Shown piece by piece: positions 20,933 through 55,579 of a DNA stretch of 64,000 nt (positions are counted from its first letter, which is position 1; every line of letters starts with the position of its first letter). The DNA is taken from the NCBI RefSeq assembly GCF_003664995.1, contig NZ_JFHL01000025.1, positions 26,976 to 90,975 of the forward strand. The letters are read 5' to 3'. The notes under the pieces were generated by a model, which worked only from the letters and a program-made list of their open reading frames with translations, did not search any database and had not been told where the DNA came from. Position numbers and translations under genes: made by a program. The stretch comes from Mesotoga sp. BH458_6_3_2_1. GTDB taxonomy: Bacteria > Thermotogota > Thermotogae > Petrotogales > Kosmotogaceae.

Positions 20933-21691
20933 TCATTCCGATCTCTTTTCAACCCGTACCGACCTCTTCCAGATCCTGAAGTACTTTGCACCGATGTTGA
21001 ATTTCTTGACAAACTCTGAGTATTCCGGCCAGATGGGCGCTCTGTAGAATTCGCTGCGGCCTATGCCTCCGTTTATGACATATTCGGGCAGAGGGTTGGT
21101 CCCGTAGAAGACCGACCGGGCCATTATCTGCCATCTTCTGGTGAAGTCGGTCCAGTTACAGCCGAAGGCTTCCCCTGGCTGGATTATGGCCAGGATCTTA
21201 GGAGCCATCCTGTTCTCTAGATAAAGCGCCTGATAAGCCGCGGCGCCGTCCGCGCATATGAAAAGTAGCGAGAACCTGGACGGATTATGGTCTTCACCGT
21301 ACTCTTCGGTTCTCTCGAATATGAACCATTCGGCGAAGGGCTTCTCGAAGACATCCGAATAATGGTCGGGGCGGTGGTATTCGGCACGGTTTGGGGTGAC
21401 CCTGATCCTCCAGCCGTTCGGCGCTAGCTGGCTCTCACTTATTGGAAGCTGGCGGATAACTCTGTATCCCCTGAATCCCTTGTTGGCGATCTCTTCGAGC
21501 AAGTTCTTCCTGCTTATGGAGTAGTCGACATATACGAAACTATAGACATTTCCCATAAAGTACTCGACCGGATGGCCGTCGTGGCCGCAGGCCGGGTAAT
21601 ACAGAGAGTCTTTCAACACGTCATGAATGTCGAATTCCGCGGGATTCTTTATCCATTCGGGCATTTCGGCCTTCGTCACTTCTTCAAACAT
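20933..21691 (-). CDS. Unnamed-family protein (stand-alone copy)
   Basis: About 252 residues, of the same family as the N-terminal half of the gene at 23549-25213: both begin with a MPEWI.NP.EFDI...L.DSL core, then GHxVxYxMGNVYSFVY.DY.ISR..LL, GYxVIRQ, F.EWF..ERTEEY, RFS...AAYQALYL..RMAPK, and NWT.F. I do not recognise the family. No membrane segment. ATG 21691 has GGGAG 8 bases upstream and overlaps the end of the HsdM-like gene by 8 bases, so it is the third gene of a coupled operon. Function unknown; obligate coupling to the HsdM-like protein suggests a partner subunit. Confidence 0.75.
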   Translation of the reverse strand: MFEEVTKAEMPEWIKNPAEFDIHDVLKDSLYYPACGHDGHPVEYFMGNVYSFVYVDYSISRKNLLEEIANKGFRGYRVIRQLPISESQLAPNGWRIRVTPNRAEYHRPDHYSDVFEKPFAEWFIFERTEEYGEDHNPSRFSLLFICADGAAAYQALYLENRMAPKILAIIQPGEAFGCNWTDFTRRWQIMARSVFYGTNPLPEYVINGGIGRSEFYRAPIWPEYSEFVKKFNIGAKYFRIWKRSVRVEKRSE

Positions 21692-23549
21692 CGGAATCAC
21701 TCCCTTCGTCTGTCGAAATTCTTCTGTCCTGCGATCCGCTCTGTTGAGGTCTGTCGGCCTTGATTGCCTCGACCGGAAGCCTCATGGCCTGAATTGCGTG
21801 CAAGGGCAGAAACTCCATGAAAAGGTGCTTTGTGGCTTCTCCAATGAGAAACTGGCCGTAGTCGCTCCTTAGAATGTTGAAGACCTTTACAGGATCGTAT
21901 TCGCCGGAGACTCTAAAGACTATGTGATTGCCTGAGGGCAGTATCGACGCGTCTGAAGGGATGTCGGTTACCAGCCCTATGGTCGTTATGTCGTCTCTTC
22001 TGTTGAAGATGATGTCGTTCTTTCGTAGAAGGGATTTCTCAGCCGCTTTTGTGAGTTCTCCGGCATGCTCCTTTAGAGAGACCAGCTGAACGATGCCCTT
22101 CTCATCGACCTCCAAGCGAGGGTACTTGTAGATCTTGCCTTTATACTCTTTTTCATCTGGCTCATGACCTTCGGGAAGGTCGGCATTCTTCGACTTCCGC
22201 AAGTATCTGTGTGATTCGAGGAACTCACCGATGGAATCCAGCTCGACGGTCGGGGAAGTCAGGAAGATTTCGTAATCATCGGGCAGCTGATCTTTCTTCA
22301 CGGGGATTATCGAGTAGTCGCCAGGCACCAGGGAATAGCCGCTATTCTTTATCGTATCTATCGGGACCAGCGCGCATACTCCGCTTTCGCCTCTCCAGTC
22401 CCTGAAGTTTCTCATTACTGAACTAAGCAGAAGATTCTCCTCTCTCACTTCGAAGCAGAAAGGCTCTCTGCCGTCGCTCTTGGATACCGACATGAAGACC
22501 TGACCTTTCCTGCCGACGGGCTTCGCCTTGTTAAGGACCAGCAAACAGCAGTCGTCGTTTCCGCCGTGAACGGCTCCAAGGGGGAGTTGTATTACTGCTT
22601 CAAGCCAGTCGTTGTCTATTATTTCCTTATTTCCTTCTCTCAGCTCTCCTCTCGTAATCAGCGTCACGAGCTTGCCGTCATCCTTCATCGAGCGAATTCC
22701 ATGGTTAATGAAGTCCCATTGGCTTATGAGACCGGACGAGATATTTAGAATGTTTCGGAGGAAGAAATCAGTCTTCAACTCCTGCAATACCATGCGCTCG
22801 CCTGTTGGTGGCTCGATAATCACCCTGTCGTACTGTTCTTCCACATAGAGAGTCTCTTTCGTCGGTTTCACGAGGGAATCGCCCCTTACGAGCTTCGAGA
22901 CGTCTATCCCGACAAGGGAAAGGATAATCTTTGTGAGTCGCCATTTCCTAGGGTCGATTTCAAGTCCGGCGAAGGAAGTGTAGTCGAAGCCTTCTCTCCT
23001 GAAGATTGTGTAGAAGGCACGTCCGTAGCCGAAAGCGGGGTCGTAAACGGTCATTCCCGGTTCGATTTCGAGCAGATCGACCATCATATCAAGTATTTCC
23101 ATCGGCACTATCATGTCAGAATAGAGAAGATTGGAGTCGATCGCAAATGAGAACATTCCCGTGTAGAAGGGGCCTATCAAAAGATCTATGTCCCTGATGG
23201 AGAGTCCGTCGATCATGCCGTCGGCGTAAGCGCAGGTTCTGTAGAAGAGGGGCGAGTCTTCTTTGAACGCCTCGCCCAATTCTCCTTTGAAGTCCATGAA
23301 AGCAAATTCCGGGTGCTCGACGATGAGCTCGGATATCGCGCTCTCAATGAGATCGGCCCGTTCCTTCCCGCTCTTTCCGAAGAACACGAACCTCCAGAAG
23401 ACGCCACTGAATTGTACGTTCTGTGAGAGTTTCTTCAACAACAGGGAGCTCCAGAAGTACTCGATCGCCTTTTCCGAGAGCATCTTGTTTTGTTGACCGA
23501 GTTTGGAAAGAAGATACATGAAGTTCTGCACGCTGCCCGGAAAGTCCAT
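21684..23549 (-). CDS. HsdM-like protein with HsdS-like C-terminus, altered catalytic motif
   Basis: Protein of about 621 residues with type I methyltransferase architecture: helical N-terminus, SAM-binding motif I as YDPAFGYGR near residue 171, motif IV as YDRVIIEPPT near 245, and the later HsdM pattern (HGI..., DNDWLEAVIQLPLG, LVLNKAKP). Canonical motif IV is NPP(F/Y); here Asn is Glu and the aromatic residue is Thr, so ordinary N6-adenine methylation is doubtful. Residues from about 435 look like a half HsdS recognition domain (SIGEFLES, LLRKNDIIFNRRD, GNHIVFRV, NILRSDYGQFLI). The ATG at 23549 overlaps the stop of the FGE-fusion gene (TGATG). A paralogue lies at 25877-27676. Confidence 0.8.
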   Translation of the reverse strand: MDFPGSVQNFMYLLSKLGQQNKMLSEKAIEYFWSSLLLKKLSQNVQFSGVFWRFVFFGKSGKERADLIESAISELIVEHPEFAFMDFKGELGEAFKEDSPLFYRTCAYADGMIDGLSIRDIDLLIGPFYTGMFSFAIDSNLLYSDMIVPMEILDMMVDLLEIEPGMTVYDPAFGYGRAFYTIFRREGFDYTSFAGLEIDPRKWRLTKIILSLVGIDVSKLVRGDSLVKPTKETLYVEEQYDRVIIEPPTGERMVLQELKTDFFLRNILNISSGLISQWDFINHGIRSMKDDGKLVTLITRGELREGNKEIIDNDWLEAVIQLPLGAVHGGNDDCCLLVLNKAKPVGRKGQVFMSVSKSDGREPFCFEVREENLLLSSVMRNFRDWRGESGVCALVPIDTIKNSGYSLVPGDYSIIPVKKDQLPDDYEIFLTSPTVELDSIGEFLESHRYLRKSKNADLPEGHEPDEKEYKGKIYKYPRLEVDEKGIVQLVSLKEHAGELTKAAEKSLLRKNDIIFNRRDDITTIGLVTDIPSDASILPSGNHIVFRVSGEYDPVKVFNILRSDYGQFLIGEATKHLFMEFLPLHAIQAMRLPVEAIKADRPQQSGSQDRRISTDEGSDSDV

Positions 23550-25213
23550 CACTGCTCTCCCCCGTCGACCAGCACTGTCTTCGCTACGCGGAAGCCTATA
23601 GATGAGTTTGTGTAACGCTCCCCTGTGAAATCACGAGCCGAAATCGTTACTTCTTCACGGTCTTCACGTACGCTTCCGCCACGAAGGATTTTGAACACAC
23701 CGGTTTCCCCATACGGGTTTATCTCCAGTCCCTCCGAGTATCTGTCGCTGTTGTCGCTGCACAGTTCCCAGACGTTGCCGGACATATCGTAAAGTCCGAG
23801 TTCGTTCGGGCTCTTCAACCCGACCTCTCGAGTTCTGTCGGATGAGTTTTCAATATACCAGGCGACCTCATCGACGTCGTTACTTCCGGCGAAGATATAA
23901 TCTCTGCTCTTGTTACCTCCCCTGGCCGCGTATTCCCATTCTGCCTCGGTAGGCAACCTGTAGCCGGCAACTCTTCTTAAGTCGGTCGTGTGTGAGCCGT
24001 CGCAATCAAGCAGCTTTCCCAATTCATCGTACGCCGGGGGCAGGCCTTCCTTTTCGCTCAACCAGTTGCAGTAGGAGATGGCGTCTAACCATTTCACATT
24101 CGTAACCGGTTTTGTGCCGTTCGGGGATTCTTCATCCACGGGTTCTTCTGCGCCCGTTTCCCTGCAGAACCTCGAGTACTCCTGACACGTGACGGTGTAT
24201 CTGCCGATATAGAAATCATAGGTAAGCATCACATAGAGGGTATTACCTTCGGCAATATCTCGTATTCTCCCTACCTCGCTCATCTCGAACTCGCCGTTCT
24301 CGACAAAGACGAGATCGTTTTCAGATGTTTCCTGCTGATGGTTCCCTCTCTGCTCGGAAACAGGTGGATTGAGCCTTGCGGGGTCTCCCGAGTACCTCCA
24401 GATAGTCACGCAGAAATTATACCCGTTGAAGTACTTCTTCACCCTGTTCGTGTATTCTGGCCAGGGTTCAGTAAAACCTGACATACCGACTATGTATTCA
24501 GGCAGGGGATTGTCGCGGTAGAATATCGTCCTGGCGAGGATCTTCTCTCTGAGGGCGAATTCTGTCCAGTTCAAGCCGAAGCCGTATTGCGGGATTACGA
24601 TGATTTTTGGAGCCATCCGATTTGCGAGATACAGGGCCTGGTAGGCCGCTACCGCCTCGGTGTTGAGAAAGAAGAAGGAGAAGCGTTTCGGATTGTGCGT
24701 CTCGTCGTACTCTTCGGTCCTCTCTAAGATGAACCATTCGGCGAAGGGCTCTTTCTGGATTCTACGCTCCGAGTTAGGGTTGCCATCTCGCTCATCCGGC
24801 AGGACCTTCTTCCACGAAGGATTCAGAATGTCTAGATATCCTGCGAAGTAACCTCTTTCGCGGTCTCCACGGAAGTGGTCGAACCGCCTCTCTCCTCGCG
24901 GATCGTCCTCGCGGTAATACCACGTAAGCGCGTCCCATCCACCCCGATGGAGTCTGTAGGGGTCTATCGATTCTTGTCGGATCACACTGTAACCTGTGAA
25001 CCCGTACTCGGCCATATCCTGCAGCAGATCTTCTCGGCTTATGAAGTAGTCGATGTACACGAAGCTGTAAACGTTTCCCATGTAGTATTTGACAAAATGG
25101 CCGTGAAGGCCGCTGGCAAGGTAGCAGAGAGAGTCCTGCAGAATGTTCCTTATGTCGAACTCCCCTGGGTTTCTGATCCATTCCGGCATTTCCATTGACG
25201 GTAGTTCCGTCAT
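23549..25213 (-). CDS. Unnamed-family domain fused to FGE-sulfatase-like domain
   Basis: About 554 residues. Residues 1-290 are the same unnamed family as the gene at 20933-21691. A linker follows, then a formylglycine-generating-enzyme-like (SUMF1, C-type-lectin-fold) domain near 310-550: F.IGRYTVTCQEYSRF, LDAISYCNWLSEKEGLP, LPTEAEWEYAARGG, SGNVWELCSD, LRGGS and GFRVAKT. The two cysteines needed for formylglycine generation are absent from the RGGS..R segment, so it is probably a binding rather than catalytic domain. AAGGAGGA upstream fits TTG 25216 or ATG 25213; the longest frame starts at GTG 25225. First gene of a three-gene coupled operon. Confidence 0.8.
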   Translation of the reverse strand: MTELPSMEMPEWIRNPGEFDIRNILQDSLCYLASGLHGHFVKYYMGNVYSFVYIDYFISREDLLQDMAEYGFTGYSVIRQESIDPYRLHRGGWDALTWYYREDDPRGERRFDHFRGDRERGYFAGYLDILNPSWKKVLPDERDGNPNSERRIQKEPFAEWFILERTEEYDETHNPKRFSFFFLNTEAVAAYQALYLANRMAPKIIVIPQYGFGLNWTEFALREKILARTIFYRDNPLPEYIVGMSGFTEPWPEYTNRVKKYFNGYNFCVTIWRYSGDPARLNPPVSEQRGNHQQETSENDLVFVENGEFEMSEVGRIRDIAEGNTLYVMLTYDFYIGRYTVTCQEYSRFCRETGAEEPVDEESPNGTKPVTNVKWLDAISYCNWLSEKEGLPPAYDELGKLLDCDGSHTTDLRRVAGYRLPTEAEWEYAARGGNKSRDYIFAGSNDVDEVAWYIENSSDRTREVGLKSPNELGLYDMSGNVWELCSDNSDRYSEGLEINPYGETGVFKILRGGSVREDREEVTISARDFTGERYTNSSIGFRVAKTVLVDGGEQ

Positions 25214-25225
25214 CAAACTGACCAC

Positions 25226-34148: not shown

Positions 34149-34245
34149 AAACAGTCTCTGATTGGCTTTGCTGTATGGAACGGACTTGATGACGGAGGGC
34201 TTTATTGCCTGCGCAGTGAGTCTCCGTCTAGAAGGAGTGAGCTCT

Positions 34246-36240
34246 TTGAACGAAAGAGTTAGAGAACAACTCACAGAGCTGGTGAAGACGCACGGTGTAG
34301 ATATACTCGATCAACCGGATAAGATCGAGACCTTGCTCAAAACGTCCTTTGGGGAATCTGAAACCGAGATAATGGCTATCGTAACGGCTCTGAGAGAGGG
34401 TTTGCTCAGAGAGTTACTGAGAAGCGAAGACTCCTCTGCACGGACTGCTGCAATTGAAGGCTTTTCCCGACGACTTAGAAAAAACCGCTCCATGGATGAA
34501 GAGGCCGCGAGCTGGGCTATAGAAAGCATAGCGTTAGCGCTTGGGAAGTTAACGCCGGCCGAAACTGAATCTTCCGGGATGAAGACAACAAATGGAGATG
34601 AACTGGTCTACATCGAGGGCGGTAGTTTTGCCATGGGTGACACCTGGGGAGACGGAGCCGACGCTGAAAGACCGGCGCACAGAGTGAATATCACGTACGA
34701 TCTCTACGTGGGTAAGTATCCAGTGACCTTCGAGGAATACGACAGGTTTTGCATGGAGACAGGAGCCACGGAACCGGAAGATGAGGGACTGGGAAGGGGA
34801 AGAAGACCGGTAATCAACGTGAACTGGTTCCAGGCGACCTGGTACTGCAACTGGTTAAGCGAGAAGGAGGGCTTACCTCCGGCCTACTATGAAGACGGGA
34901 GTCTTCTGGACGAAAACGGGAAGAAGACGAATGACATAGCGAGAGTACGGGGATACAGGTTGTTGAGCGAGGCCGAATGGGAGTATGCGGCAAGGGGCGG
35001 AAGAGAGAGCCGAGGTCACAAATATTCCGGTTCCGATGACCCGAGCCTTGTTGCCTGGTTCGATGAAAAACCCAGTGAAGCTCCGACCGATTTGAGTAAA
35101 GCAAAGAGGCTCGTAGCCCACGAAGTTGGGATGAAGATGCCAAATGAACTTGGCCTGTACGACATGAGCGGCAGTGTTTGGGAGTGGTGTTCAGATCGAT
35201 TCGATGATTATGCCGGTTCGGAACAGACAAATCCACATTCAATAAGCGAAGGCGGCCGGGTCATTCGGGGCGGCTGCTGGTTCAAGCCCGCCAATTTAGC
35301 AAGGATTGCTCACCGAGAAGAACTTTCACCGATGGAAATCCACAATGGCGTGGGCTTTCGAATCTGCAGAGCGGCAGATCGAAAAACAAAAGCAGTTTCA
35401 TTTTCAGAGAGAAATGAAAGACAGGCCGATGAGTCCTCATTTATGCCAGCCGGAGAGGTTCCCGACTTGGTGCTCGTTGAGAGAGGAAGCTTCAAAATGG
35501 GAGACACATGGGGCGACGGATTGATAGACGAAAGACCGGTTCGCGAAGTAAGAATTACGTATGACTTTTACATTGGCAAGCACGAAGTCAGGTTCTCAGA
35601 ATTCGACGTCTTCTGTGAAGCCACGGGAAGAATCCCTCCTTCCGACGAGGACTGGGGGAGGGGAGATTTGCCCGTCATAAACGTAACTTGGTGGGACGCC
35701 GTGGAGTTCTGCAACTGGCTTAGCGAGAGAGAAGGTCTCCCAAAGGCCTATGACGATGACGGACGCCTCCTGGATGCCACGGGAAAGGCTACGGACAAAT
35801 TGGAAAGAGTACCCGGATTTAGGCTGCCTACGGAAGCCGAATGGGAATATGCGGCCAGGGGAGGTAACAAGAGCGAAGGTCATAAGTATGCAGGAAGCGA
35901 CGACGTGGACGAAGTCGCCTGGTACTGCGAAAATTCGGGAATCAAGACGCACGAAGTGGGAAAGAAGGCGCCGAATGAACTGGGAATCCACGATATGTCC
36001 GGCAACGTCTGGGAGTGGTGCTCCGACTGGTACGAGGAAGACTACTACAGGTACAGCCCAAATGTGAACCCGTACAATACCGAAGGCGACTACGAACGGG
36101 TCATGCGGGGCGGCAGCGCGGGACTTAATGAGACTTTCGCCCGGGTAACACATCGCGATTATCTGGAGCCCTCTTCAGCGGGCAACGCTGTCGGCTTTCG
36201 CATATGCAGAACAGCCAAAAACCAATCCGAACTTCCTTGA
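34246..36240 (+). CDS. Protein with two tandem FGE-sulfatase-like domains
   Basis: About 664 residues. The frame opens at TTG 34162, but TTG 34246 has AAGGAG 8 bases upstream and starts exactly at a recognisable N-terminal helical domain (residues 1-105, VKTHGVDILDQPDKIETLL pattern), of the sort placed before varied effector domains. Two FGE-like domains follow (about 115-375 and 395-660), each with GDTWGDG, YCNWLSEKEGLP or CNWLSEREGLP, EAEWEYAARGG, SG(S/N)VWEWCSD, RGG and GFRICR. Neither has the cysteine pair of true formylglycine-generating enzymes, so binding is more likely than catalysis. It follows the AddA-like gene by about 100 bases on the same strand. Confidence 0.85.
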   Translation: MNERVREQLTELVKTHGVDILDQPDKIETLLKTSFGESETEIMAIVTALREGLLRELLRSEDSSARTAAIEGFSRRLRKNRSMDEEAASWAIESIALALGKLTPAETESSGMKTTNGDELVYIEGGSFAMGDTWGDGADAERPAHRVNITYDLYVGKYPVTFEEYDRFCMETGATEPEDEGLGRGRRPVINVNWFQATWYCNWLSEKEGLPPAYYEDGSLLDENGKKTNDIARVRGYRLLSEAEWEYAARGGRESRGHKYSGSDDPSLVAWFDEKPSEAPTDLSKAKRLVAHEVGMKMPNELGLYDMSGSVWEWCSDRFDDYAGSEQTNPHSISEGGRVIRGGCWFKPANLARIAHREELSPMEIHNGVGFRICRAADRKTKAVSFSERNERQADESSFMPAGEVPDLVLVERGSFKMGDTWGDGLIDERPVREVRITYDFYIGKHEVRFSEFDVFCEATGRIPPSDEDWGRGDLPVINVTWWDAVEFCNWLSEREGLPKAYDDDGRLLDATGKATDKLERVPGFRLPTEAEWEYAARGGNKSEGHKYAGSDDVDEVAWYCENSGIKTHEVGKKAPNELGIHDMSGNVWEWCSDWYEEDYYRYSPNVNPYNTEGDYERVMRGGSAGLNETFARVTHRDYLEPSSAGNAVGFRICRTAKNQSELP

Positions 36241-42900: not shown

Positions 42901-44752
42901 ATGACCTTACGGATTTTAGCATATTGGTGATTCCAAGAAGCGGGCGAAGAGTATTAAACTGACTGGAAACTTCACTGTGAGAGTCCTTGACTTCATCTAT
43001 CGCGCTACTTAGATTCAAGAAAGAATCTCTATAACTTGACGGAAGATCTCTTGTAATTGGCAGAATATGAGAAAGAAGATCCTCTGCTAACTTCAAGGCT
43101 TTATCTTCGGCTGAGCTTTCGGTCTCAAATAAGTCAAGAATCGCTGAAATTCTGGAATTTACATATTCTAGTTCCTTACTGATGGAAGATCTCCATTCGA
43201 GCGATGTATCTTCTCCTATCTCCCTTAGTTTTCCTATCGTGCCTCTTATTTTCGACAGCGATTGACGAACGCGCATTACAAAGACAGCATCGGGGCCAAC
43301 TGCCCTGACTTTGTTAAGAACATCCTTCTTATGGTTTCGATACATTTCGGCGTGCCGCTTAACATTGTCAAGATTGCTGATGATCTTTCCGAGTTGATCC
43401 CGCGTGAGATCTTGCACGTGTGTTAAATCAAAACTCATAAGATCTACATCATGCAGAGCTGCTAGATTGCCGTGAAGCTCAAATGCTGAAATCTCAAGAG
43501 AAGTTCTCTTTTCGTGTAGCCTTCTAACGTAGCTGTTAAGTTTTTCTCTTATCTCCTTGAGTCTAGAGAGTTCACGCTCTAGACTTCGCGTATCTACAGC
43601 ATGGTTGTTAGCTTCATTTAGGACTCGATCCAGTTCGTCCAGAACCACCCTCTTCCCCGTTTTCTTACTGTGGAGCTCCAGACAAAAATCTCCCAATTCA
43701 CAATCATCCAAACGTCTCTTTACAACTTCAAGAGCTGCCATTTTCTCGCTTACGAAGAGGACTCTCTTGCCCTGACTCAGGGACTCCGCGATGATATTCG
43801 CTATTGTCTGACTCTTTCCAGTTCCCGGAGGTCCCTGTATCACTAGGTCTTGACCGCTTTTCACGGCAAGGATAGCCTCTTGCTGACTCGAGTCGGCATC
43901 CAGTATCTGATAACAATGAAGAGGATCGTTTTCGACATCCAAGTCTGCAAGCTCGTCGTTTTCATTATCTGGCACAACCAACGGCTTCCCCTCTGCAATT
44001 GTTCTTAGCACGGCATTCTCATATATCATGTTTGCGTAGTTCTCTAAATCTTTGTACATTGCAAGCTTGGCAAACGAGAAAACCCCTAAAGCCACGTCTT
44101 CGGCAACCGACCAACCCTCGATCGGCTCAATTAGATTTCTGACTTTTACAAATAAATCTCTCAGGGTCGACTCTTCAAGCGATATTTCCTGATCATAAGC
44201 AGACGCCAGGTCAAGGCCAAATTCCTCCAACTTTTCTGAAAGTGTTGGATTAAGTACAATGTCGTCATCGATGATCCTTACGGAATAGGGCGAGGCAATT
44301 GTCTCACGGGTAATGGAAACTGGAACAAGGAGTAAAGGGGAAATCACAAAGCTCTTGTTATAATCTATTTCTCTCCACTTGAGGAAACCGAAAGTCATAA
44401 AAAGGGTATTGATTCCCATTTCCTCGTAAGAAGTCCTGGACTTGAGTTTTAGTCTATTGAGAACAAGATTCATTTCCTTTTCTTCACGGTCAGCCTGTAT
44501 CTGGTTTGCTCTAAGGGAAACAATGCTTCGATATTCTTGCTCTTCATCATCTTCAGGAGGAATCGGAACGAAGTTCATCTCTTTTTCTTGGACGACAATC
44601 TTATTGAAGATCTCACTGCTTGAAGGTTTTATGAGCATCAAATTGCTCGTCTTGCTTGTCCTGAAGTTGATTAATCTGTTTCTCATTGTGAGATCTAGCA
44701 ACGCCTTCTTCCACTTGTCTACCTTAACGGAAACAGCATCATTGTTTTCCAT
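39920..44752 (-). CDS. DUF4011-helicase-Vsr-like-DUF3320 protein
   Basis: 1610-residue multidomain enzyme. N-terminal DUF4011 (KKALLDLTMRNRLINFR); superfamily I helicase motifs GPPGTGKSQ near residue 305, DEASQ near 984, GDNKQLPP near 1010 and AITRAKKK near 1225; a long coiled middle near 370-760; a Vsr/DUF559-like nuclease near 1290-1400 (SPFETEVYEEL, GYRIDLAI, GIECDGAMYH, GWKIIRIWSRDW); and a DUF3320-like C-terminus. This order has been reported as a single-gene anti-phage system, so phage DNA attack is the likely role. ATG 44752 is preceded by a GGAGGGAT site. All motifs appear intact. Confidence 0.9.
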   Translation of the reverse strand: MENNDAVSVKVDKWKKALLDLTMRNRLINFRTSKTSNLMLIKPSSSEIFNKIVVQEKEMNFVPIPPEDDEEQEYRSIVSLRANQIQADREEKEMNLVLNRLKLKSRTSYEEMGINTLFMTFGFLKWREIDYNKSFVISPLLLVPVSITRETIASPYSVRIIDDDIVLNPTLSEKLEEFGLDLASAYDQEISLEESTLRDLFVKVRNLIEPIEGWSVAEDVALGVFSFAKLAMYKDLENYANMIYENAVLRTIAEGKPLVVPDNENDELADLDVENDPLHCYQILDADSSQQEAILAVKSGQDLVIQGPPGTGKSQTIANIIAESLSQGKRVLFVSEKMAALEVVKRRLDDCELGDFCLELHSKKTGKRVVLDELDRVLNEANNHAVDTRSLERELSRLKEIREKLNSYVRRLHEKRTSLEISAFELHGNLAALHDVDLMSFDLTHVQDLTRDQLGKIISNLDNVKRHAEMYRNHKKDVLNKVRAVGPDAVFVMRVRQSLSKIRGTIGKLREIGEDTSLEWRSSISKELEYVNSRISAILDLFETESSAEDKALKLAEDLLSHILPITRDLPSSYRDSFLNLSSAIDEVKDSHSEVSSQFNTLRPLLGITNMLKSVRSFEETVSLLTSYRPDILQLNLTRLQEKFARSYNSFFGRLFGGYKKNLRILSSLKYDGIVDIETIVEDLTKASRVLSQCGIMTKACDKEELISVLERSKKTIRSFYESYSKFEKALRNSESDLRELIEYFSFFSVLPNGNQNQQSIPGRSDWVERAISATNVFFKDLEEVSDMVITEPFSDGKSLLDFEGFEDFVHRLQDSLPKLDDWLSMKKSIIFLEKAGLEDFLERARESEVKTDMLDKVFLKGFYSRLLSELYANDEVLNSFSTNDHNLLVKEFRILDSKQQLYARKRLASLLAQRVPVSNLVNSGSAETSILRREIAKKRRNKSIRRLFSEIPNLLQVLKPCMMMSPLSVSVFTNPERFRFDVAIFDEASQVFPEDSVGAIMRAKQVVVVGDNKQLPPTSFFRISEPDEAELTDEENDLESLESILDECSTAGLPEKKLLWHYRSWHESLIAFSNYHFYMNRLSTFPSSSFDGLDSGICFEYVSNGVYDRAKSRKNIEEARKVAEMVMSHARTEPGVSLGVVAFSEAQQTAILDRIEELRSQDQSVEDFFGEDKLEPFFVKNLENVQGDERDEMIFSIGYGRDASGKLTMNFGPLNKNGGERRLNVAITRAKKKVTVVSSIRGGDISAEIQTPGVRALREYLNYAEQGGSKEFLLRETENTGGEFESPFETEVYEELTARGFNVHKQVGCSGYRIDLAIVDDEHPGRYIVGIECDGAMYHSARTARDRDRLRQQVLEKLGWKIIRIWSRDWIFDRNSEMVRVIAEIEVARSVSEDTEVLHINNELIIEDPLPSIEREEVTLPIYEKFSVFDLTRMLSSKRAVQVFDALRAIIEKEAPVHLDEVVSRISMLFDTHPHLLQVNWDMYTKSGNISRKILREFVMTQFPRDSFVLQGDFLLKRNERILPRQSASRNDMRKPEHIPPVEIQEAIKLCLKNAFTMDREDLKTDVARLFGFKRTGTNISTVIDNEVSLLVRNHEIQVQDGKVSIRKA

Positions 44753-46980: not shown

Positions 46981-47091
46981 CTATTACTTGTTTTTTGGCA
47001 ACTAGGAATACCGATTCGGCCAAACAAAAATCCAGAACCCGGGATTAACTGTTTTGCCTCTAGTGTTGGAGTAATTCAGAATGCGACTTCT
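46981..47091 (+). repeat. 110-base dispersed repeat, copy B
   Basis: Second copy of the 39031-39145 element, ending directly at a diverged GGGTCAGACTCC-like motif (47097-47120). Confidence 0.75.
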
Positions 47092-47177
47092 AAAATAGGG
47101 CCGGACTCCTTTCTTCACTCTAAACGGGAGATCGAAGATAAAAATCTGTGAGGGCATTTCTTAGGATAGAAAAGAAA

Positions 47178-47402
47178 GGTTAAGCGGAGCCTTTTTCCTG
47201 CTCCGCCCACGGGGACACCCCCATGCAGTTAAATTATAGCACTTTGCCATCCTTAGGAGAAAGTGATCGATAACAAAAGAAGATACATATTGCTCGACAT
47301 AAGAAAGCATCACATCACCTGGTTTTTTTCATTGAAAGTAACATACTGGACTTTCCGGATCAAGTCAGCTCGCGTTTTTTTCACGATCGGAGATAGGTTG
47401 TT
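47178..47402 (+). repeat. 225-base dispersed repeat with hairpin, copy B
   Basis: Second copy of the 37807-38031 element. The GCGGAG/CTCCGC hairpin stem is kept although its loop has changed, a hint that pairing matters. Same orientation as copy A. Confidence 0.75.
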
Positions 47403-47435
47403 GAGTCGTCGGCAAAATTCGGCACGCCATAAGTT

Positions 47436-47458
47436 GGGTCAGACTCTTTTTTCAAAAC
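47436..47458 (+). repeat. GGGTCAGACTC-type repeat (diverged)
   Basis: GGGTCAGACTC followed by a T-run, about 35 bases beyond the 225-base repeat copy B. Another diverged copy lies at 47097-47120. Confidence 0.5.
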
Positions 47459-47703
47459 TTCTTATGCTTTTTTCAGTAGTTTGTCTATCGTTCAATTCAA
47501 ACACTCTTACTTCTCTTCCTTCTGTAGAATCTAGATCACTACTATCCAACAAGTTGAAAGCACTAGTCAAAAAGAGTTTCTGAGCACCATAAATCATATA
47601 TGCAAACAGAAATCATTATCGCTTCAAAAAGAGGTGCCATCCGAAGAAAGCAACTCTAGACCCACCATCTGTCCAAGGCTCAAGGCTTTCTTGCCTCTCA
47701 TGA

Positions 47704-48447
47704 CTAGTCATTTACAATTGCCTTGCTCCAGTCAAATTGAAGAACTTCCGTTAAATCTACATCGACGCCACCGGCTCTGGATATTGTGACTTCAACCTTG
47801 TTTATTCCATATGAACTTGACCAATCATCTGGTGGACAGTGAAGCATCATAATGGTATCGGCTTCTGCCAAGTATGACCCGTTCCCTTCAAAATCCTCTA
47901 TTCTTAGTATCTTTCCAGCATTTCTAAATGCAGAGACTTTAAGCTTTGTCGCAAGGATGAATACAATGCCCAGGTTCATTCCAACTTTCTTCAGAAGCCG
48001 ACAAGCTTTCCTCTTTCCTGACAAGAGGTAAAGGTCGTCGATGACGAAGATTTCAATTCCTCTAGAGTGATGGAGTTCGGTTGCAACATCTATCGCTCTT
48101 TCTAAGCTACGTTCCTTCAAATCCACAATATCTAATGTAAGCTGCTTGAATTCATACAAACTGCGATTCAATTCATCTAATTCATCTGTGGGCAGAATTC
48201 TTGTATCTATTAGCTTTAGCTGTGATTCGAAAATTCTACGCAAAAGTTTTATCTGAAGACTTTTTGAGCGCTCACTATTTGAGAAAAAGGCAACCCGTCC
48301 ACCTTCAAGAGCAAATTTATACGCCAGATTTAGCAGAAGTGTTGTTTTTCCGCTCATATACAGTCCTCCAACCACTATTAGATGCCCACTTGCTATTGGT
48401 TGGAGATTATCAGATAGACCTTTATAAGGCCAGTTCAGATCTTTCAT
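47704..48447 (-). CDS. RecA-fold ATPase, DnaB-C-like
   Basis: 247 residues corresponding to the ATPase half of a DnaB/KaiC-type RecA fold: IVVGGLYMSGKTTLLLNLAYKFA (Walker A near 27-35), FFSNSE, and IFVIDDLYLL (Walker B near 133-142), followed by a late strand pair with HCPP and VTISRAGG. The N-terminal domain of replicative DnaB is absent, and GLYMSGKTT replaces the usual PSMGKT. ATG 48447 lies upstream of a weak ribosome site. It follows the beta-propeller/FGE gene on the same strand by about 175 bases. Probably a stand-alone NTPase of an accessory system, not the replicative helicase. Confidence 0.7.
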   Translation of the reverse strand: MKDLNWPYKGLSDNLQPIASGHLIVVGGLYMSGKTTLLLNLAYKFALEGGRVAFFSNSERSKSLQIKLLRRIFESQLKLIDTRILPTDELDELNRSLYEFKQLTLDIVDLKERSLERAIDVATELHHSRGIEIFVIDDLYLLSGKRKACRLLKKVGMNLGIVFILATKLKVSAFRNAGKILRIEDFEGNGSYLAEADTIMMLHCPPDDWSSSYGINKVEVTISRAGGVDVDLTEVLQFDWSKAIVND

Positions 48448-48621
48448 GAATCACCTCGAAATAGCTTCCATTGTTCTGCTACTCTGCTTAACATTCCACA
48501 ACTAAGATCTATACTAAAGCAGCTCCACTCTTTTTTCATAAAAGCTTGCATGCCGTAAAATTTCGATCTCATCAAACGCTGATTTGCATCATTATTTAGA
48601 AATCGCTTTTCTAAAACCAAG

Positions 48622-51282
48622 TTAGTCGGAGTATTTCACAACGTTTCTTGCCTTTTCTTGCTTTTCCGGTCCGGTAATCGTCAATACAACTCTGAAGCAG
48701 ATATCCTTGTCCTGATAGAAAGGACTTAGTGCACTCCTTATAGAATAATCATTTATGTCCGGCGGAGATATTCTTCTCGCGATTCTCTGAGGATAACCCC
48801 GTTGAAAGCATGGGTTATGGAACATTACTGCTGACGAAGGAGAATAAGCATCTGTACACCAGTTCCAGAGGTTTTCGGTAGATGGATTTCTTCCTGCCAT
48901 GAAATAGCCGGAGGCAAGTTCCCACTCGGCATCAGTCGGAAGTCTGTAACCTTCTACTCTCTCTATGTGAGTTGTAATATTGCCGTTGCCGTCCAACAGC
49001 TCTCCATTTCTGCTGTAGGCTAAGGGCAACCCTTTCAGCTCACTAAGATAGTTGCAATAAGCAATTGCATCCTCCCAGTTAGCGTTTTTCGGACGCGAAA
49101 GTCTTTTCGCAGAAGAAGTGTGATCTTGAGAATTGGTCTTATCATCTCCTTCATCACTCAGAAAGAAATACTGTTCAAAGGTGATTGGCTCGGCGGATAT
49201 TAGGAAACTGTAGTCGAGCTCGACGGCTACAAGAGAATAGTTACTCTCATTTATGTCTGATCCAGGCCTGGTCATGATGAAGAGTTCTCCTTCCACTACG
49301 AATAACCTCACTTTTTCGAAGATTTTCAATCTTCTGTTAAACGCTTCTGTCATCTCTTCAATAGCCAGTCTCGTCGGCCGGTACTCCACTTCACTTCTCA
49401 GGTCCTGTCCAACCTTCTGAATCAGCAACCCCCCACCCAAAACACCAACGGCAATAACATTGTCTGAAAGGGCAAAAGAAGGGCTTATGTAGTCCTCTCG
49501 GGACAATGTGCCTGGCACATCCGGTGCAACAAGACCCACCTGAGCTACAGTGAGCTTTCCCAAGAAAACACCGTGAACGCGGTGACTGTCTTCCAGAACA
49601 CAGACCAACGGGGATTTCGGTTCGTCTATCACTCTCCTGTTTAGCATTGATTGCGATAGAATTTTGAATATGCCTGCTCCTTCACAGGTTTCAACAAAGA
49701 GATATCTCAAATTCCTTCTTAGGAAAGTTGTGCACTCACCACTAACTCCTAAAATTGACTCCGAGATTCCCAGACGGTTTCCGCTTTCACATTCAAAAAG
49801 GGCAATCCTGCCGTTCCAGCCTACTGCAATTATGAAACTTGCGTTGCTGTCTACCGACACTGAAGCTATGGGCCCCATTCTTCCGCTGATTCTTTTCATC
49901 TCCTTGAAATCAAATATATCAAAGATCACTATCTGACCGTCTATTGAAGACGCAAACAACCTGCCATTACCGCAGGTAAGATATGTTACACATCTCTCAA
50001 AGGATTGCACTTCATCTTGCAGTTTGAAAGACCTTGAATTGACTTCTAACAGCTTGCCATCATGAGTTCCAATAAAGAGCCTATGATCTCCCTGAAAAGT
50101 CATGCAGCTTACTCGGCAACCTACGTCTAGCTGATTTTCAATTGTTAGTGTTGGGATCCTCACTTTGTAGATAAGATTCTTGATGCTAAATATCAGGGAC
50201 GAAGTCCCTTTTTCGAAGATCATCGCTTCTACCGGTTCTTCCACTGAGTTCTCTATATTGAAAACATCACCACTTTCGGTGTCAAAAACCATTATTCTGT
50301 TATCGAGATGGCGTGAAGCCACATATCTTTCGGAGTCGCTTATCGCTATTAAGGTTGAAGCTCCAATAACGGGAAAGCGTGATAGTATCTCCCCATTCGA
50401 AAGATCACGTAATTCGAATTTGCCATCTGAGACGATCAAAACTCGCTCACCGTCCGATGAGAATTCATACTCGATAGCTCCGATTTCTCGAAAGTCGATC
50501 TTGTTTCGCCAAAGAACTCTTCCGTCAATCAAATCAAGTGAGATAAGCTCTTCCCTCGCCTCATTGACAAAGAGAACTGATCTACCTAGATTGCTCACTC
50601 CCAGCAACCTGTCGCATATGTGTTCCTCGATACTCCATTTTTCCTCTCCAGTTGCCGGATCAATTGCAAACAGGCATCCTCCGATCCCTGCTGCGATCAG
50701 ATTTTCTGAGCTTCTACTAATTTCCAGTTCATATAGGTCGCATCCCAAATCTGCCCGAAATAGCAGTGAGCATTTCTTTTCTCCCGCTTCGAACTTGAAG
50801 ATACTACCTTCTTCCGTTGCGGCGAACAGACTCATTCTAAATGAGTCGAATGCAAAAGCCGATACTACTTCATTGCACGAAACGTCAGAAAGTATTCCTG
50901 TGTGATCCTGAATCGAAATTACAGTGAGAAAATTTCCGCGGCTGACAAAGGCAAGGTAATTCCCGGTTTTATCAATCGACAGAGAGAGAATCTCTTTCCC
51001 ATAAGGGATTCTATCAACTATTCCAAATTCCTCTGTATCGACAATAAGAATGTATTCGATATTTGCTATCGCAGCAAACAGCCTTCCATTACGTAAAAAG
51101 AGAACACCGGGACAGATATCAAGACGGCCGAAGGGTTTTGAGATTCTTAGTAGTTTCCTGGAAGTCAAATCATACTTCGCTATAGTACCGAAGTGATCAA
51201 GAGACACTAGAGTCTTCTCATCATCCGAAAACCTTATCGATACAGGTCTTGAGCTGAAGGCAAATACCGGGTCAGAAAACAT
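48622..51282 (-). CDS. Beta-propeller/FGE-like fusion protein
   Basis: About 886 residues. The first 660 or so show repeated WD40/PQQ-like blades (patterns such as F.SRPVSIRFSDDEKTL, LAFVSRGN, VSVDSNASFIIAVGWNGRIALFE), likely two propellers. Residues from about 690 are a shortened, diverged FGE-like domain (ANWEDAIAYCNYLSELKGLPLAY, GYRLPTDAEWELA, LWNWCTD), with the RGG/GFR end altered to FRVVL. The GTG at 51288 is too close to AGGAGGT; ATG 51282 has 7-base spacing. No signal peptide or membrane helix. Likely a sensory scaffold. Its start lies inside the run-on end of the TIR-FGE pseudogene. Confidence 0.8.
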   Translation of the reverse strand: MFSDPVFAFSSRPVSIRFSDDEKTLVSLDHFGTIAKYDLTSRKLLRISKPFGRLDICPGVLFLRNGRLFAAIANIEYILIVDTEEFGIVDRIPYGKEILSLSIDKTGNYLAFVSRGNFLTVISIQDHTGILSDVSCNEVVSAFAFDSFRMSLFAATEEGSIFKFEAGEKKCSLLFRADLGCDLYELEISRSSENLIAAGIGGCLFAIDPATGEEKWSIEEHICDRLLGVSNLGRSVLFVNEAREELISLDLIDGRVLWRNKIDFREIGAIEYEFSSDGERVLIVSDGKFELRDLSNGEILSRFPVIGASTLIAISDSERYVASRHLDNRIMVFDTESGDVFNIENSVEEPVEAMIFEKGTSSLIFSIKNLIYKVRIPTLTIENQLDVGCRVSCMTFQGDHRLFIGTHDGKLLEVNSRSFKLQDEVQSFERCVTYLTCGNGRLFASSIDGQIVIFDIFDFKEMKRISGRMGPIASVSVDSNASFIIAVGWNGRIALFECESGNRLGISESILGVSGECTTFLRRNLRYLFVETCEGAGIFKILSQSMLNRRVIDEPKSPLVCVLEDSHRVHGVFLGKLTVAQVGLVAPDVPGTLSREDYISPSFALSDNVIAVGVLGGGLLIQKVGQDLRSEVEYRPTRLAIEEMTEAFNRRLKIFEKVRLFVVEGELFIMTRPGSDINESNYSLVAVELDYSFLISAEPITFEQYFFLSDEGDDKTNSQDHTSSAKRLSRPKNANWEDAIAYCNYLSELKGLPLAYSRNGELLDGNGNITTHIERVEGYRLPTDAEWELASGYFMAGRNPSTENLWNWCTDAYSPSSAVMFHNPCFQRGYPQRIARRISPPDINDYSIRSALSPFYQDKDICFRVVLTITGPEKQEKARNVVKYSD

Positions 51283-52559
51283 CGCCACACCTCCTCTTTT
51301 TTAGGTGAAGGATGTCTCTAGAAAACACTTTTGAAAGATACAACGCAATACGAAAACCAAGACGGTTACACTTGCAAGTAGGGATGCTACAGTTGCGGCC
51401 ACTCACAAACAATCCCGCCGCACTGTGGCTCCAGCTGTCACCACGTCTAAGCCTCCTGGAGCCGTTTGAACCGTTGTATAGATTGATTGTTGGGCTTTCA
51501 CCGTGGAATTCTTCGTCACAAAAGTCGCTGCACCATTCCTCCACGTTTCCACTAATGTCATACATTCCCAGTTCATTGCACTTCAACTGACCGACTTCGT
51601 GAGTCTTGCTCCCTGAGTTGGAATCATACCAGGCAACAGAGTCCAGGTTGTCAGATCCGGCGTAATTGTACCCCATACTCTTTTTCCCACCCCGTGCAGC
51701 GTATTCCCATTCAGCTTCAGTCAGCAATCTGCATCCCTTCACTTTCGTTATGTCCTCCGTCTTTCTCTTATTCACGTCTAAAAGACTTCCATCTCCGGAA
51801 TAGGCTATTTGAAGCCCTTCCTTTTCACTCAGCCAGTTGCAGTATTCCATTGCATCAAACCAGCTAACATTTATAACTGGCCTTCTTTCCCTTCCCCATC
51901 CCGAATCTTCTGGTTTAGTTGTTCCCTTCTCCATGCAATAACCGTCATATTCATCGAATACTACAAGAAACCTCTCTGTGTAGATGTCAATGTAAGTTCT
52001 ACTTCGTGGAGGGATTTTTAACCATCAAAATCATTTCCCCATGTGTCCCCCATAACAAAGCTTCCGCCTTCTACACACACTAACGCGTCGCCGTTTGCTA
52101 AAGTCAGACTCTTCAAAGTCGATATTATGATATTGACAAGACTGCTCTTTCAGAAATATCAAAGCTTATTCTATTCCTGAGCCGTCGAGACATTTCACTT
52201 TTTCTAATGTTCTCAACGAATGTGAAGATTTGGCCGTTCCTTTTTATGCCCTTGACTATATCATTATGGAAGCCTTTCCATTCATGCTTAACACATTTCG
52301 AATTCAGATTTTCCTTACTCGAAGCAACCACTACCATTACGCGGGTCTTATTAAGAGCGTCTTCAATGTGTTTCTTGTAAGCAGCCTCTCCTATCTCATC
52401 AATCGAAAGATTGCTCAAAAAGGCTCTTATCGATTGCACTTCAAGTAAATCGTAAAGTTCCTTAGCAAGACGCCAGTCTCTTGTGTCTACACCTCTTTTT
52501 CCATTCGAGACTTTGCATGATATGAATACCTGCCAGTCCTTCGAAGCGTCCCGAGCCAT
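51272..52559 (-). pseudogene. Decayed TIR-FGE gene (copy 2)
   Basis: Tandem paralogue of the intact gene at 52986-54332. The TIR part (52125-52559, ATG 52559 behind AAGGAGTGAGG) ends at a stop where the intact copy continues. The linker is shortened. The FGE part resumes in another frame (LANGDALVCVEGGSFVMGDTWG), has an in-frame TAA near 52020 and a frameshift near 51990, then stays open from about 51960 to 51272. The normal stop after GFRIA is lost, so the frame runs into the next gene's start. Its C-terminal region retains a highly divergent set of codons (see variable-region entry). Confidence 0.85.
51359..51430 (-). other. DGR-like variable region in TIR-FGE pseudogene
   Basis: Codons between the conserved TGG and GGT-TTT-CGT of the FGE-like domain. 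Fixed codons (GCG, CGC, CCT, AAG) are shared with the intact paralogue. Between them, 16 codons differ almost throughout at positions 1 and 2, and most end in C or T, the trace left when AAC/AAT template codons are randomised. Hand alignment; template not found. Confidence 0.4.
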
Positions 52560-52985
52560 TCCCTCACTCCTTGCTTTCCTGGCTTTTTGTCTTACTATCC
52601 GGTAATCTTCTGACCTTTTCCTGTCAACCGGATCTTCGGTTGACTATTATTCAATGTATTCAATAGCGCACAGGCAAATTTCTTGCCGTTAAGGTGCCTC
52701 CAGGGCTTTGGATATGATCCTCGAGTTGAGAGGGGTATTTCAACTAGAAGAGAGATCGGACACATTCCTTTCCTGAATTGTCATGCTCGTCGTTTCAATT
52801 CCTAATCCACATTTGTCTAAAAAGTCTTCAGACTTTTCTGTTCGTCTCAACTCATCTATTCGATAAGGTCTCCAATACTCTCAAGAAGTATTCTATACTT
52901 TCGAACAAAAATCTTCCGTATCTTCTGCGGTTCCTCAGTATCCGTCGCTCGAAACCACATCAAAAGAGCAAATGAAAAAGTGTAA

Positions 52986-54332
52986 TCAGAACACCGTCCT
53001 TGCAATACGGAACCCGAAGTCGAAGTACTTGTAATCAGGAGTGTCGTCTAGGCGAAACGCTACCCGTACGCACAACGCATAGTCGAGCCAGCTACCACCA
53101 CGTTTCACCCGGGAGGAACCATCTGTACTGTTGTACGGGTTGATTGATGGACTCCTGCTGTAATACTCACTGTCATAACAGTCACAGCACCACTCCCACA
53201 CGTTTCCGGACATATCGTACAGACCAAGTTCATTGCACTTCTTCTGCCCCACTTCGTGTATCATTCTTCCAGAGTTCGAATCGTACCAGGCAACTAAATC
53301 AGGGCTGTTAGATCCGGCGTACTTGTACCCCATACTCTTTTTCCCACCCCTTGCCGAATATTCCCATTCAGCTTCCGTAAGTAACCTGTATCCCTTTACT
53401 TTCGTTATGTCCTCTGTCTCTTGCTTGTTCCTGTCTAATAGACTTCCATCTCCGGAATAGGATATTGGAAGCCCCTCCTTTTCACTCAGCCAGTTGCAAT
53501 ACTCAATGGCATCGAACCAGCTCACCCACATTACCGGCTTTCTTCCCCTTCCCAAGCCTGAATCAGATGGTTCCTCTGTCTCGATCTCCCTACAGAATCT
53601 GTCATATTCATCAAATGTCACAGGACACTTCCCAATGTAGAAGTCATATGTGAGCTCTACTTCGTGGGGGGGTTTTTCTTTGTCAAAACCATCTCCCCAT
53701 GTGTCTCCCATTATGAACACTCCACCCTCAACATAAATTAGCTCATCACCGTTTCTCGAGGTTATGCTTTTTATCGCCAGTTCGCTTTCGGTTTTTTGCT
53801 GGAGGGAGATAGAGTCATGTCCGGTCGAGGTTGCTATTTTTTTTTGCTCACTTTCACTCTTTGGTGTGAGGTTCGTGGAATCAAGTCCCAATGCCGATAT
53901 TACAAAACTCACAAGACTGCTTCTTTCAGAAACATAGAAACTCTGGTTGTTCCTGAGTGGCCGAGGCAGTTCATGAATTCTAAGAGTTTCAACGAACGCG
54001 AATACTCTTCCTCCCTTTTTTATGCCACTTATTATTTCATTGTGAAAGCTATTCCATTCATACTTAACATATTCCGAATTAATGTTCTCTTTGCTTGTCC
54101 CAACGACTACCATTACCTGGGCTTGTTCAAGTGCTTCTTCTATTACTTGTTTGTAGTCAGATTCTCCTAATTGCCCCAAAGAAATACTGCTCATGAAGAC
54201 CTTTATCGAATTCGCTTCAAGTAATTCGTAAAGCTCCTTCGCAAGATGCCAGTCTCTTGTGTATCCACCTTTTCCATCTGAAACCTTGCACGATATGAAT
54301 ACCTGCCAGTCCTTTGAAGAATCTCGAGTCAT
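52986..54332 (-). CDS. TIR-domain protein with FGE-like C-terminus
   Basis: 448 residues. N-terminal TIR domain, about 8-150: DWQVFISCKV, AKELYELLEANSI, QAQVMVVVGTSKENINSEYVKYEW, with Glu92 where TIR NADases keep their catalytic glutamate. A polar linker follows, then an FGE-like C-type-lectin-fold domain near 185-448: VEGGVFIMGDTWGDG, YCNWLSEKEGLP, EAEWEYSARGG, SGNVWEWCCD, RGGSW and GFRIART. The formylglycine cysteine pair is absent. ATG 54332 follows AAGGAGTGAGG. The natural reading is a sensor (FGE-like) and effector (TIR, NAD cleavage or signal production); that is inference. Next to a decayed copy of itself. Confidence 0.85.
   Translation of the reverse strand: MTRDSSKDWQVFISCKVSDGKGGYTRDWHLAKELYELLEANSIKVFMSSISLGQLGESDYKQVIEEALEQAQVMVVVGTSKENINSEYVKYEWNSFHNEIISGIKKGGRVFAFVETLRIHELPRPLRNNQSFYVSERSSLVSFVISALGLDSTNLTPKSESEQKKIATSTGHDSISLQQKTESELAIKSITSRNGDELIYVEGGVFIMGDTWGDGFDKEKPPHEVELTYDFYIGKCPVTFDEYDRFCREIETEEPSDSGLGRGRKPVMWVSWFDAIEYCNWLSEKEGLPISYSGDGSLLDRNKQETEDITKVKGYRLLTEAEWEYSARGGKKSMGYKYAGSNSPDLVAWYDSNSGRMIHEVGQKKCNELGLYDMSGNVWEWCCDCYDSEYYSRSPSINPYNSTDGSSRVKRGGSWLDYALCVRVAFRLDDTPDYKYFDFGFRIARTVF
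53016..53087 (-). other. DGR-like variable region in TIR-FGE gene
   Basis: Between the conserved TGG and GGG-TTC-CGT codons near the gene's end. Against the neighbouring paralogue, the changed codons match the positions that are Asn (AAC/AAT) in typical DGR templates for FGE-like proteins; 13 of 16 end in C or T here. No reverse transcriptase or template repeat is seen in the window, so a distant DGR would have to act in trans. Confidence 0.45.
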
Positions 54333-55579
54333 ATCCTCACTCCTTGCTTTCCTGGCTTGCTATCTTTCTCTCCAACAATCTCCTGTCATTTTCCCATCAA
54401 CCGGATCATCATTGAACTATTATTTAAGATGTTCGATATCGTTTATTATACAATTTGTCATCTCTATCCCGATTCAGTTAGCAGTGTTCACACTCTAGCT
54501 TCTAAAGAGATCCCATCGTTTTTTAGCCTTTAGGTGACACTCACTTTAGACTCAACTATTACAGTAATAAATCTGAAAATAGCTAGACAAGCGGAGAAAT
54601 CAGAAGAGAACCAGACGAACTTCCACTACAAAATCTGATTTGCCCCAATGGAATTGAATGCGAGAGTCCCCGGCGGATCAAACAAGGGATTCTAGTAGTG
54701 ACAACGGGAATGATATGAGCAGAAAGAATAAATTTTTGCTCGTTTTGGCATTTGCATTCACAAACGAAGAAAAACCCGTTTTTCTCGCTTGCTGATGCAA
54801 TCCTTCTGTTTCGACTGCCATTTGACTTTTTTCAAAACTCTCAAACTGCAGATAAAATTGAATTCAGCTTCACCAGATACAGCCTGTTCGAGATACACAA
54901 AAGGCCTTCTTCTCAATTGATAAAATTGCCAATTGCTGAAGAGAAAATTTGTTCTTCCGAAAGCGTTTTCCCGTATACTATTCTCTCTTGTTCATAAGGT
55001 ATTCCAAAACCGAAAATCAGTTCTGACTAATATTTTACTTACAGAATTCTGATCACCAAGAGCTCTTTGCAGACGAGGTCCTTAATATTGATCTCCCAAA
55101 AAGCAATCTAATTTGAAGTACCCATTAATGTAAGCTTGACGCGAATAGTTTTGGGGAGAGAACTCCTCGTTGTTCTTGGGTTATAGATTTAAGCATTACT
55201 TACAATCATCGTCAAAGAAGAATTCTGCAGTCAATAATCCGCAATAATTTTCCCTTTTGAAAGCACGTTGATCATTTGTTGGAGAGTACGATTGACCTCT
55301 TCTGCATTCTAAAATGTTTGCTTTCACATGAAGAAATAGTATAATAACATAAACAAGCTTTAGTCGTCCTCAGATTAACTCCTCTTCCTCAGAATAAGAT
55401 ATTCGTTTTGCATAAAGGAATTGACTTATTGGGGGTATGGATGTTGTCGATTATCTGTTATCAATCGGACGAACTACTCATTAAGGAAAAGCTCCTACTT
55501 AGCTTTTATCACCCTCTGAAGCATTGTCATTGTGTTACGAAAGAAAACAGACATCTTTTCTCGGTTGGAGCGTGATTTC
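54333..55579. other. Intergenic, about 1.2 kb
   Basis: AT-rich region between divergent genes. A short frame at 54717-54797 (MSRKNKFLLVLAFAF...) looks like the start of a secreted protein but stops after 26 residues; a small AAAAAC/GTTTTT hairpin lies at its end. No DGR template, repeat copy or RNA gene recognised. Confidence 0.5.

Follow-up and report, generated by a model that had tools for sequence, protein, structure and literature searches.

The last 36 codons of a TIR-FGE gene of Mesotoga sp. BH458_6_3_2_1, here called gene A, were probably written by a diversity-generating retroelement (DGR) that then left the gene behind. Their changes are biased toward the adenines of an inferred template, a search of ten genomes of the genus found no matching writer, and in the sister species the encoded protein has this region unchanged. 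We analyzed a 64,000-nucleotide stretch of contig NZ_JFHL01000025.1, referred to throughout as the window. Its genome, a 36-contig assembly, is labeled G000; the sister species is G006, and G001 to G004 are further genomes of the genus. Gene A and, downstream of it, its decayed neighbor, copy B, lie in the window as follows.

52986..54332, minus strand: gene A, TIR-FGE protein of 448 amino acids (ORF; Pfam TIR_2 at 31.1 bits, with a cut-off of 28, and FGE-sulfatase at 180.3 bits)
54018..54257, minus strand: TIR domain of A, residues 26-105 (Pfam stretch)
52998..53747, minus strand: FGE-type C-type-lectin-like domain of A, residues 196-445 (Pfam stretch)
53004..53111, minus strand: variable region of A, 36 codons, R408-I443, of which 13 are AAC/AAT in the inferred template
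51272..52559, minus strand: copy B, decayed TIR-FGE neighbor, its frame broken between its two ORFs
52125-52559, minus strand: TIR ORF of B (ORF, Pfam)
51272-51934, minus strand: FGE ORF of B (ORF, Pfam)
51345..51436, minus strand: variable-region equivalent of B, identical to the sister species at 90 of 92 bases

The ORF and Pfam results bear out the coordinates and domains that an earlier note had assigned to this gene, and the stretch singled out there falls inside the last 36 FGE codons of A. With its TIR_2 match above the cut-off, A has the TIR domain of a TIR effector. The C-type-lectin/FGE fold of a DGR target is indicated by the FGE-sulfatase match and by TvpA, a variable protein of Treponema denticola that is closest to A in sequence among solved structures (2y3c, E 4e-29); a structure model of A is weak, with a mean pLDDT of 56.8 and values under 50 over most of the TIR part. 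Aligned with 6muj and 2q17, A has a gap and an alanine at the sites where these proteins carry two cysteines in the loop that follows RGGS. We take these cysteines to be the active-site pair of true FGE, and A is accordingly unlikely to have FGE enzyme activity. Within the KYEW stretch of the TIR domain, the glutamate is presumably the candidate NADase residue. A PADLOC search with the A protein gave no match at E 1e-5, and a first scan of the TIR-FGE protein against genome_contigs found no relative in that set, from which near genomes may be absent.

The earlier note had argued from the alignment of A with B, in which fixed codons frame variable ones whose third bases were said to agree in about half, as adenine mutagenesis of a template would leave them. 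Fixed codons do frame variable ones in both copies; the RGGSW...GFR frame is also the ordinary frame of the FGE fold. Over the 36 variable-region codons, the two copies disagree in 18, 17, and 16 cases at codon positions 1, 2, and 3, compared with 36, 44, and 70 in the 190 codons of the body. Third-base differences are as frequent in the region as in the body; the agreement claimed for third bases is thus no better than elsewhere in the gene, and we rejected the pair as DGR evidence. Taken alone, the missing third-base conservation between A and B speaks for an alternative in which the binding surface of the FGE fold diverged in the ordinary way, under relaxed or positive selection and with no retroelement involved. 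The same alternative draws on the solved relatives, which vary in the same part of the fold.

We therefore compared the region across the FGE family of the genus. The genome of A itself has 17 FGE matches. From the window and the genus loci, 51 distinct FGE C-termini were aligned by codon after a motif search with 85 raw hits, a set that excludes FGE matches without an extracted locus or without the motif. In several pairs whose bodies share about 75-82% identity, the variable regions diverge at positions 1 and 2 and far less at position 3. Twelve genes yield the consensus CGG GTG nnT CGT GGC GGT AGC TGG nnC nnC nnT GCG nCG nnC ... CTn GGn TTn CGT ATT, and the inferred template is this consensus with n read as A, a few positions (e.g., the last bases of framework codons) being set by the commonest base. 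In 36-codon windows across ten of these twelve genes, the ratio of third-base differences to the mean of those at positions 1 and 2 is 2.4-5.9 in the body, falls across the border of the region, and reaches 0.55-0.66 at the end; these ten genes, like the twelve of the template, were picked after the pattern had been seen, so the small p-values of the ten-gene group are inflated.

Pairs chosen on body identity alone (0.75-0.80) behave in the same way. Their third-base differences drop from 0.44 in the body to 0.27 in the region, with a lower regional value in 30 of 32 pairs, and the differences at positions 1 and 2 rise from 0.14 and 0.12 in the body to 0.36 and 0.30 in the region. The third-base effect is weaker in disjoint pairs with body identity of 0.70-0.85 (132/396 versus 800/2023, p 0.011; 7 of 11 pairs have the lower value in the region) and is gone over wider identity ranges (264/610 versus 1424/3211 and 431/847 versus 2219/4550). 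We read this fading as a mixture of templated and untemplated genes. Two ortholog clades carry no footprint, showing mostly third-base differences and a region like the body, and in ten pairs with bodies at least 0.90 alike, region differences are 0.05 at positions 1 and 2 each and 0.20 at position 3. As we read these alignments, some genes of the family would be templated and others not, with little or no rewriting between the nearest genomes compared. Many family members have no template footprint, a point in favor of ordinary divergence. Two G000-G006 ortholog pairs differ at all codon positions of the region, in 15, 11, and 14 of 25 codons and in 14, 12, and 13 of 26 codons (positions 1, 2, and 3), in one of the pairs as a sharply bounded block of about 115 bp. 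They depart from this reading, and the inferred template gives no explanation for them. Two further FGE genes of the window belong to this family.

34162..36240, plus strand: FGE gene with two FGE domains; template footprint absent in the first (p 0.16) and weak in the second (p 0.006)
23549..25225, minus strand: FGE gene beside a type I methyltransferase-like gene; variable region almost wholly different in the sister species

In the protein of 34162-36240 and in several database relatives, P0078 among them, the FGE domain is preceded at the N terminus by more than 100 residues that match no Pfam family; this stretch could be an unnamed adaptor domain.

The DGR signature in A becomes visible only when the gene is set beside a template inferred from other members of the family in the genus. 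Relative to the one derived from twelve other FGE genes, A is changed at 19 of 32 adenines and at 11 of 76 other bases (Fisher 5e-6), and it keeps the template third base in 11 of 13 AAC/AAT codons; in the body of A, the third base is C or T in 93 of 199 codons. Framework codons point in the same direction: in the variable region, 13 of 15 carry the synonymous base of a consensus built from ten related genes, versus 56 of 106 in the body (p 0.011). Against this inferred template, A thus shows what is expected of a DGR target, a C-terminal variable region changed at template adenines. For B, 19 of 32 A sites and 27 of 76 others are changed (p 0.019), and its framework synonymous bases match the ten-gene consensus no differently in the region (6/12 codons) and in the body (47/91). 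Five other regions of the own genome, that of B included, reach p 0.006-0.022 in the same template-A test because the template A sites are naturally variable sites of the fold; part of the A-site enrichment is therefore expected without any DGR. Yet ordinary divergence is hard to reconcile with a subset of the genes in which silent framework bases are conserved while positions 1 and 2 carry excess changes.

Protein relatives of A bear on the same question. We took the best 120 of 6963 hits, 107 of which have the 33-residue region, and counted pairs without hand selection. Among the relatives listed with body identity of at least 98%, 29 of 51 template-A codons differ, along with 2 of the region's 48 remaining codons and 1 of 539 residues in the body, in a set of three disjoint pairs, two of them mutual duplicates in the variable stretch (14 identical-region pairs were set aside). 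Among those listed with bodies at least 90% identical (16 disjoint pairs, with 15 identical-region pairs set aside), the counts are 148 of 272 template-A codons, 18 of 256 others, and 170 of 2858 body residues. Changes almost limited to template-A codons between near-identical bodies argue against ordinary divergence; at the same time, different variable regions on nearly identical bodies are what would be seen if an active DGR served A in the living population, with its reverse transcriptase and template on DNA missing from the assemblies (a plasmid, a phage, or a gap). The TIR-FGE relatives P0003, P0012, and P0019 have ends of the form found in A. A further relative, P0004, listed as unclassified Mesotoga, has 450 residues and 65% identity to A, and viral FGE relatives have at most 45% identity.

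The inferred template has counterparts outside the phylum. Among plasmid records, it gave one match at E 1e-5, in Prosthecochloris pPAES01 (89.7% over 68 bases, E 2e-16), located in an unannotated stretch immediately after a DGR reverse transcriptase gene; at E 10 there were six further matches, the best with E 0.08. A 27-base template pattern searched against genome_contigs found 19 loci outside the phylum, 15 of which have a DGR-type reverse transcriptase (SQ/YxDD) in the extracted stretch. Compared with 18 of these 19 template-like stretches (one is incomplete; 15 of the 18 have the reverse transcriptase), A has a mean mismatch of 0.64 at A and 0.32 at non-A bases and ranks sixth of the 51 family members by fit at the non-A bases. 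That the inferred template matches DGR templates elsewhere further weakens the case for ordinary divergence, which we regard as a very improbable account of the region. The pPAES01 match also means that a plasmid-borne DGR with such a template is known, a circumstance favorable to an active element beyond the assemblies.

We searched for a writer of the region in the genome of A and across the genus. In the own genome, three RVT_1 pieces were found: one is intact, with TPQGG and YADD (group II type), and the other two make up one broken gene, so that no DGR-type reverse transcriptase with an SQ motif is present among the RVT_1 profile matches. Across ten genomes of the genus, SQ-type enzymes occur only in G002 and G004 among RVT_1 matches with extracted loci, and the matches in G001 and G003 that have no extracted locus score like group II copies or are fragments. 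A DGR reverse transcriptase query against 103 Thermotogota genomes at E 1e-30 likewise returned G002 and G004 only. For the accessory protein Avd there was no match in G000; clear matches are confined to the prophage DGRs of G002 and G004, with a weak one in G003 (E 7e-4). A search for relatives of a similar DGR reverse transcriptase gave 2746 hits, and none of the 120 listed carries a Mesotoga name; most are unnamed, so this is no proof of absence.

Searches for a template in the genus had the same outcome. The inferred template gave 16 matches at E <= 5e-5, all of them inside FGE genes, plus 4 short weak ones, in a BLAST search that could overlook a diverged template. With the end of A as the query, we recovered A itself, two paralog ends, and two short weak matches. 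A scan of the window and the extracted genus loci for a template near the gene found none, nor did two exact template patterns in viral contigs or a template query in phage records (E 1e-5). The check proposed in the earlier note, for a DGR reverse transcriptase and a template matching A, thus returned neither from the genome; SQ-type reverse transcriptase, template repeat, and Avd, which together make a complete DGR, were all missing from what we found there. The DGRs of the genus (2 of 10 genomes) are of prophage type and have another template. Those at L026 (G002) and L030 (G004) each consist of a variable protein, an Avd-like protein, a template, and a reverse transcriptase, and their variable regions differ from their own templates by 15 A and 1 other mismatch (L030) and by 12 A and 7 others (L026). 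We rejected them as the writer of A because the templates differ. By sequence comparison, templated genes appear in six genomes of the genus, and a writer matching them was not found.

The comparison with the sister species shows a region at rest. The G006 copy of the FGE part of A is 97.9% identical over 728 bases, and a single base, silent, differs within the variable region. In this one comparison there is no hypervariation at the A locus, and it is among database relatives only that hypervariation is seen. B is split into two ORFs in the sister species as well. The earlier note had described a DGR-like variable region. Its reading survives as to origin, given the adenine-template footprint, and current diversification is not supported, with no element found and the region frozen; both results that it had named as counting against it were obtained in part, in that no DGR reverse transcriptase was found in the genome and the comparison with G006 showed no diversification. 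The freeze of A, and likewise of B, between G000 and G006 also tells against an active DGR serving the gene. Some FGE genes do lie near contig ends or on short contigs of the 36-contig assembly, where such an element could have been missed; against this, the single-contig G001 has templated genes and no DGR reverse transcriptase was found in it, a plasmid outside that record being possible. We consider an active element quite improbable. Since no cognate reverse transcriptase or template was found and the region is frozen, we read A as left behind by its DGR.

Another possibility is that variable-region cassettes spread between paralogs or species by recombination, with only a distant source having been written by a DGR. 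The FGE gene at 23549-25225 (minus strand) speaks for this: relative to G006 (L083), its flanks are 92-100% identical and about 115 bp of the variable region are almost wholly different, and the version found in the window recurs in G004 at 98%. The alignment has the appearance of a clean exchange of the variable region only. Recombination of this kind would not readily produce changes nearly restricted to template-A codons between near-identical bodies, and as a general explanation we find it unlikely.

The preferred reading, a region written by a DGR and then abandoned, can be laid out in steps. A cellular-type DGR, probably arriving on mobile DNA, would have copied an AAC/AAT-rich template with adenine errors into several FGE-domain genes in the genus, at their 3' ends, the TIR-FGE gene A being one of them. 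The footprint of this step is observed, and a DGR is its likely agent. The element would then have been lost from the lineage, or would lie on DNA outside the assemblies, leaving a variable region that is fixed and inherited; the freeze between two species is observed, and the departure of the element is its likely cause. By analogy with the protein families, the lectin-like face formed by the variable region would likely bind a ligand, perhaps a phage or other foreign protein, and binding would gather TIR domains to act on NAD+. A is likely an orphan DGR target in Thermotogota and a receptor fixed after retroelement diversification, that is, a TIR effector with a DGR-written and now fixed lectin domain that would serve as its sensor. 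It is also possible, although we would sooner doubt than assert it, that Mesotoga maintains on its chromosome a set of lectin-type receptors, bearing TIR or other N termini, and that a mobile DGR passing through occasionally rewrites their faces, which are afterward inherited as fixed; such hit-and-run diversification would leave a germline-like repertoire in genomes without the retroelement.

If the reading of A is correct, the mark of a DGR can outlive the element, and receptors can be hypermutated, retained if useful, and inherited unchanged. It would also mean that TIR is combined with a DGR-written lectin in Thermotogota. Orphan target genes of this kind would escape surveys that begin with the reverse transcriptase, and fixed variable regions would be easier to test for ligands than hypervariable ones.

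Several known systems resemble A in part. For Thiohalocapsa and other multicellular bacteria, passages of Dore et al. (2024, PMC10907252) report FGE-type DGR targets, some of them linked to TIR or other effector domains. Some of the targets have no intact reverse transcriptase or matching template in the reference genome, and antigen sensing by such targets is put forward there as a hypothesis. Like A, these targets have a C-terminal FGE-type lectin domain with a DGR variable region, and the target of DGR 2 has CHAT and TIR. In contrast to the targets as described in those passages, A has its TIR joined to FGE with no NTPase domain found, its host belongs to Thermotogota, and across ten genomes of the genus no reverse transcriptase, Avd, or template was found to match its family. 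TvpA of T. denticola and TaqVP of Thermus aquaticus share with A the FGE-type C-type-lectin fold and a variable region at the extreme C terminus; both are given as single-domain proteins in the relevant part of PMC6328139, whereas A has an additional N-terminal TIR. In the DGR of Prosthecochloris aestuarii pPAES01, the stretch after the reverse transcriptase matches the template inferred for Mesotoga, and genes of the FGE family whose ends vary adjoin it. Unlike the case of A, that DGR has annotated Avd and reverse transcriptase on a plasmid typed as conjugative, and its FGE proteins end in GFRLVRQP, whereas A ends in GFRIARTVF. DGRs move on phages, plasmids, and transposons, according to the portion of the DiGReF report drawn on here (PMC3521204). 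Finally, an excerpt of Kaur et al. (2020, PMC7159879) proposes FGS/FGE domains and TIR effectors as parts of ternary/STAND conflict systems, some with DGRs; A differs from the systems in that excerpt, as no MoxR, VMAP, or STAND domain was matched in Pfam.

Three elements appear to be new: the minimal TIR-FGE form, the Thermotogota host, and a templated gene set in six genomes without a matching writer. The open-licence literature yielded no paper on Mesotoga with DGRs or formylglycine, and papers on Thermotogota and DGRs concern other subjects, judging by title and the start of the abstract.

Further features around A in the window are listed here; with the last two of them, the surroundings could be a conflict island.

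48622..51288, minus strand: beta-propeller protein with a partial FGE domain, 888 amino acids, a neighbor (Pfam)
39920-44752, minus strand: PADLOC candidate defense protein PDC-S37, a very strong match (1408.9 bits)
21684-23552: type I methyltransferase-like gene (PADLOC)

The TIR-FGE array has three FGE copies in G006 (L078 2223-10328) and two in the window (47091-54349). Over its first ~230 bases, A shares 85-92% identity with the middle G006 copy, and its FGE half matches the third copy, near a contig end; these mixed matches may reflect shuffling within the array. Elsewhere in the own genome, and part of the same conflict-island picture, an FGE-TIR-TIR-FGE protein (L089 5019-8123, minus strand) is encoded near two others: a TPR protein that matches AAA_16 weakly and a protein whose TrkA_N match is sub-threshold.
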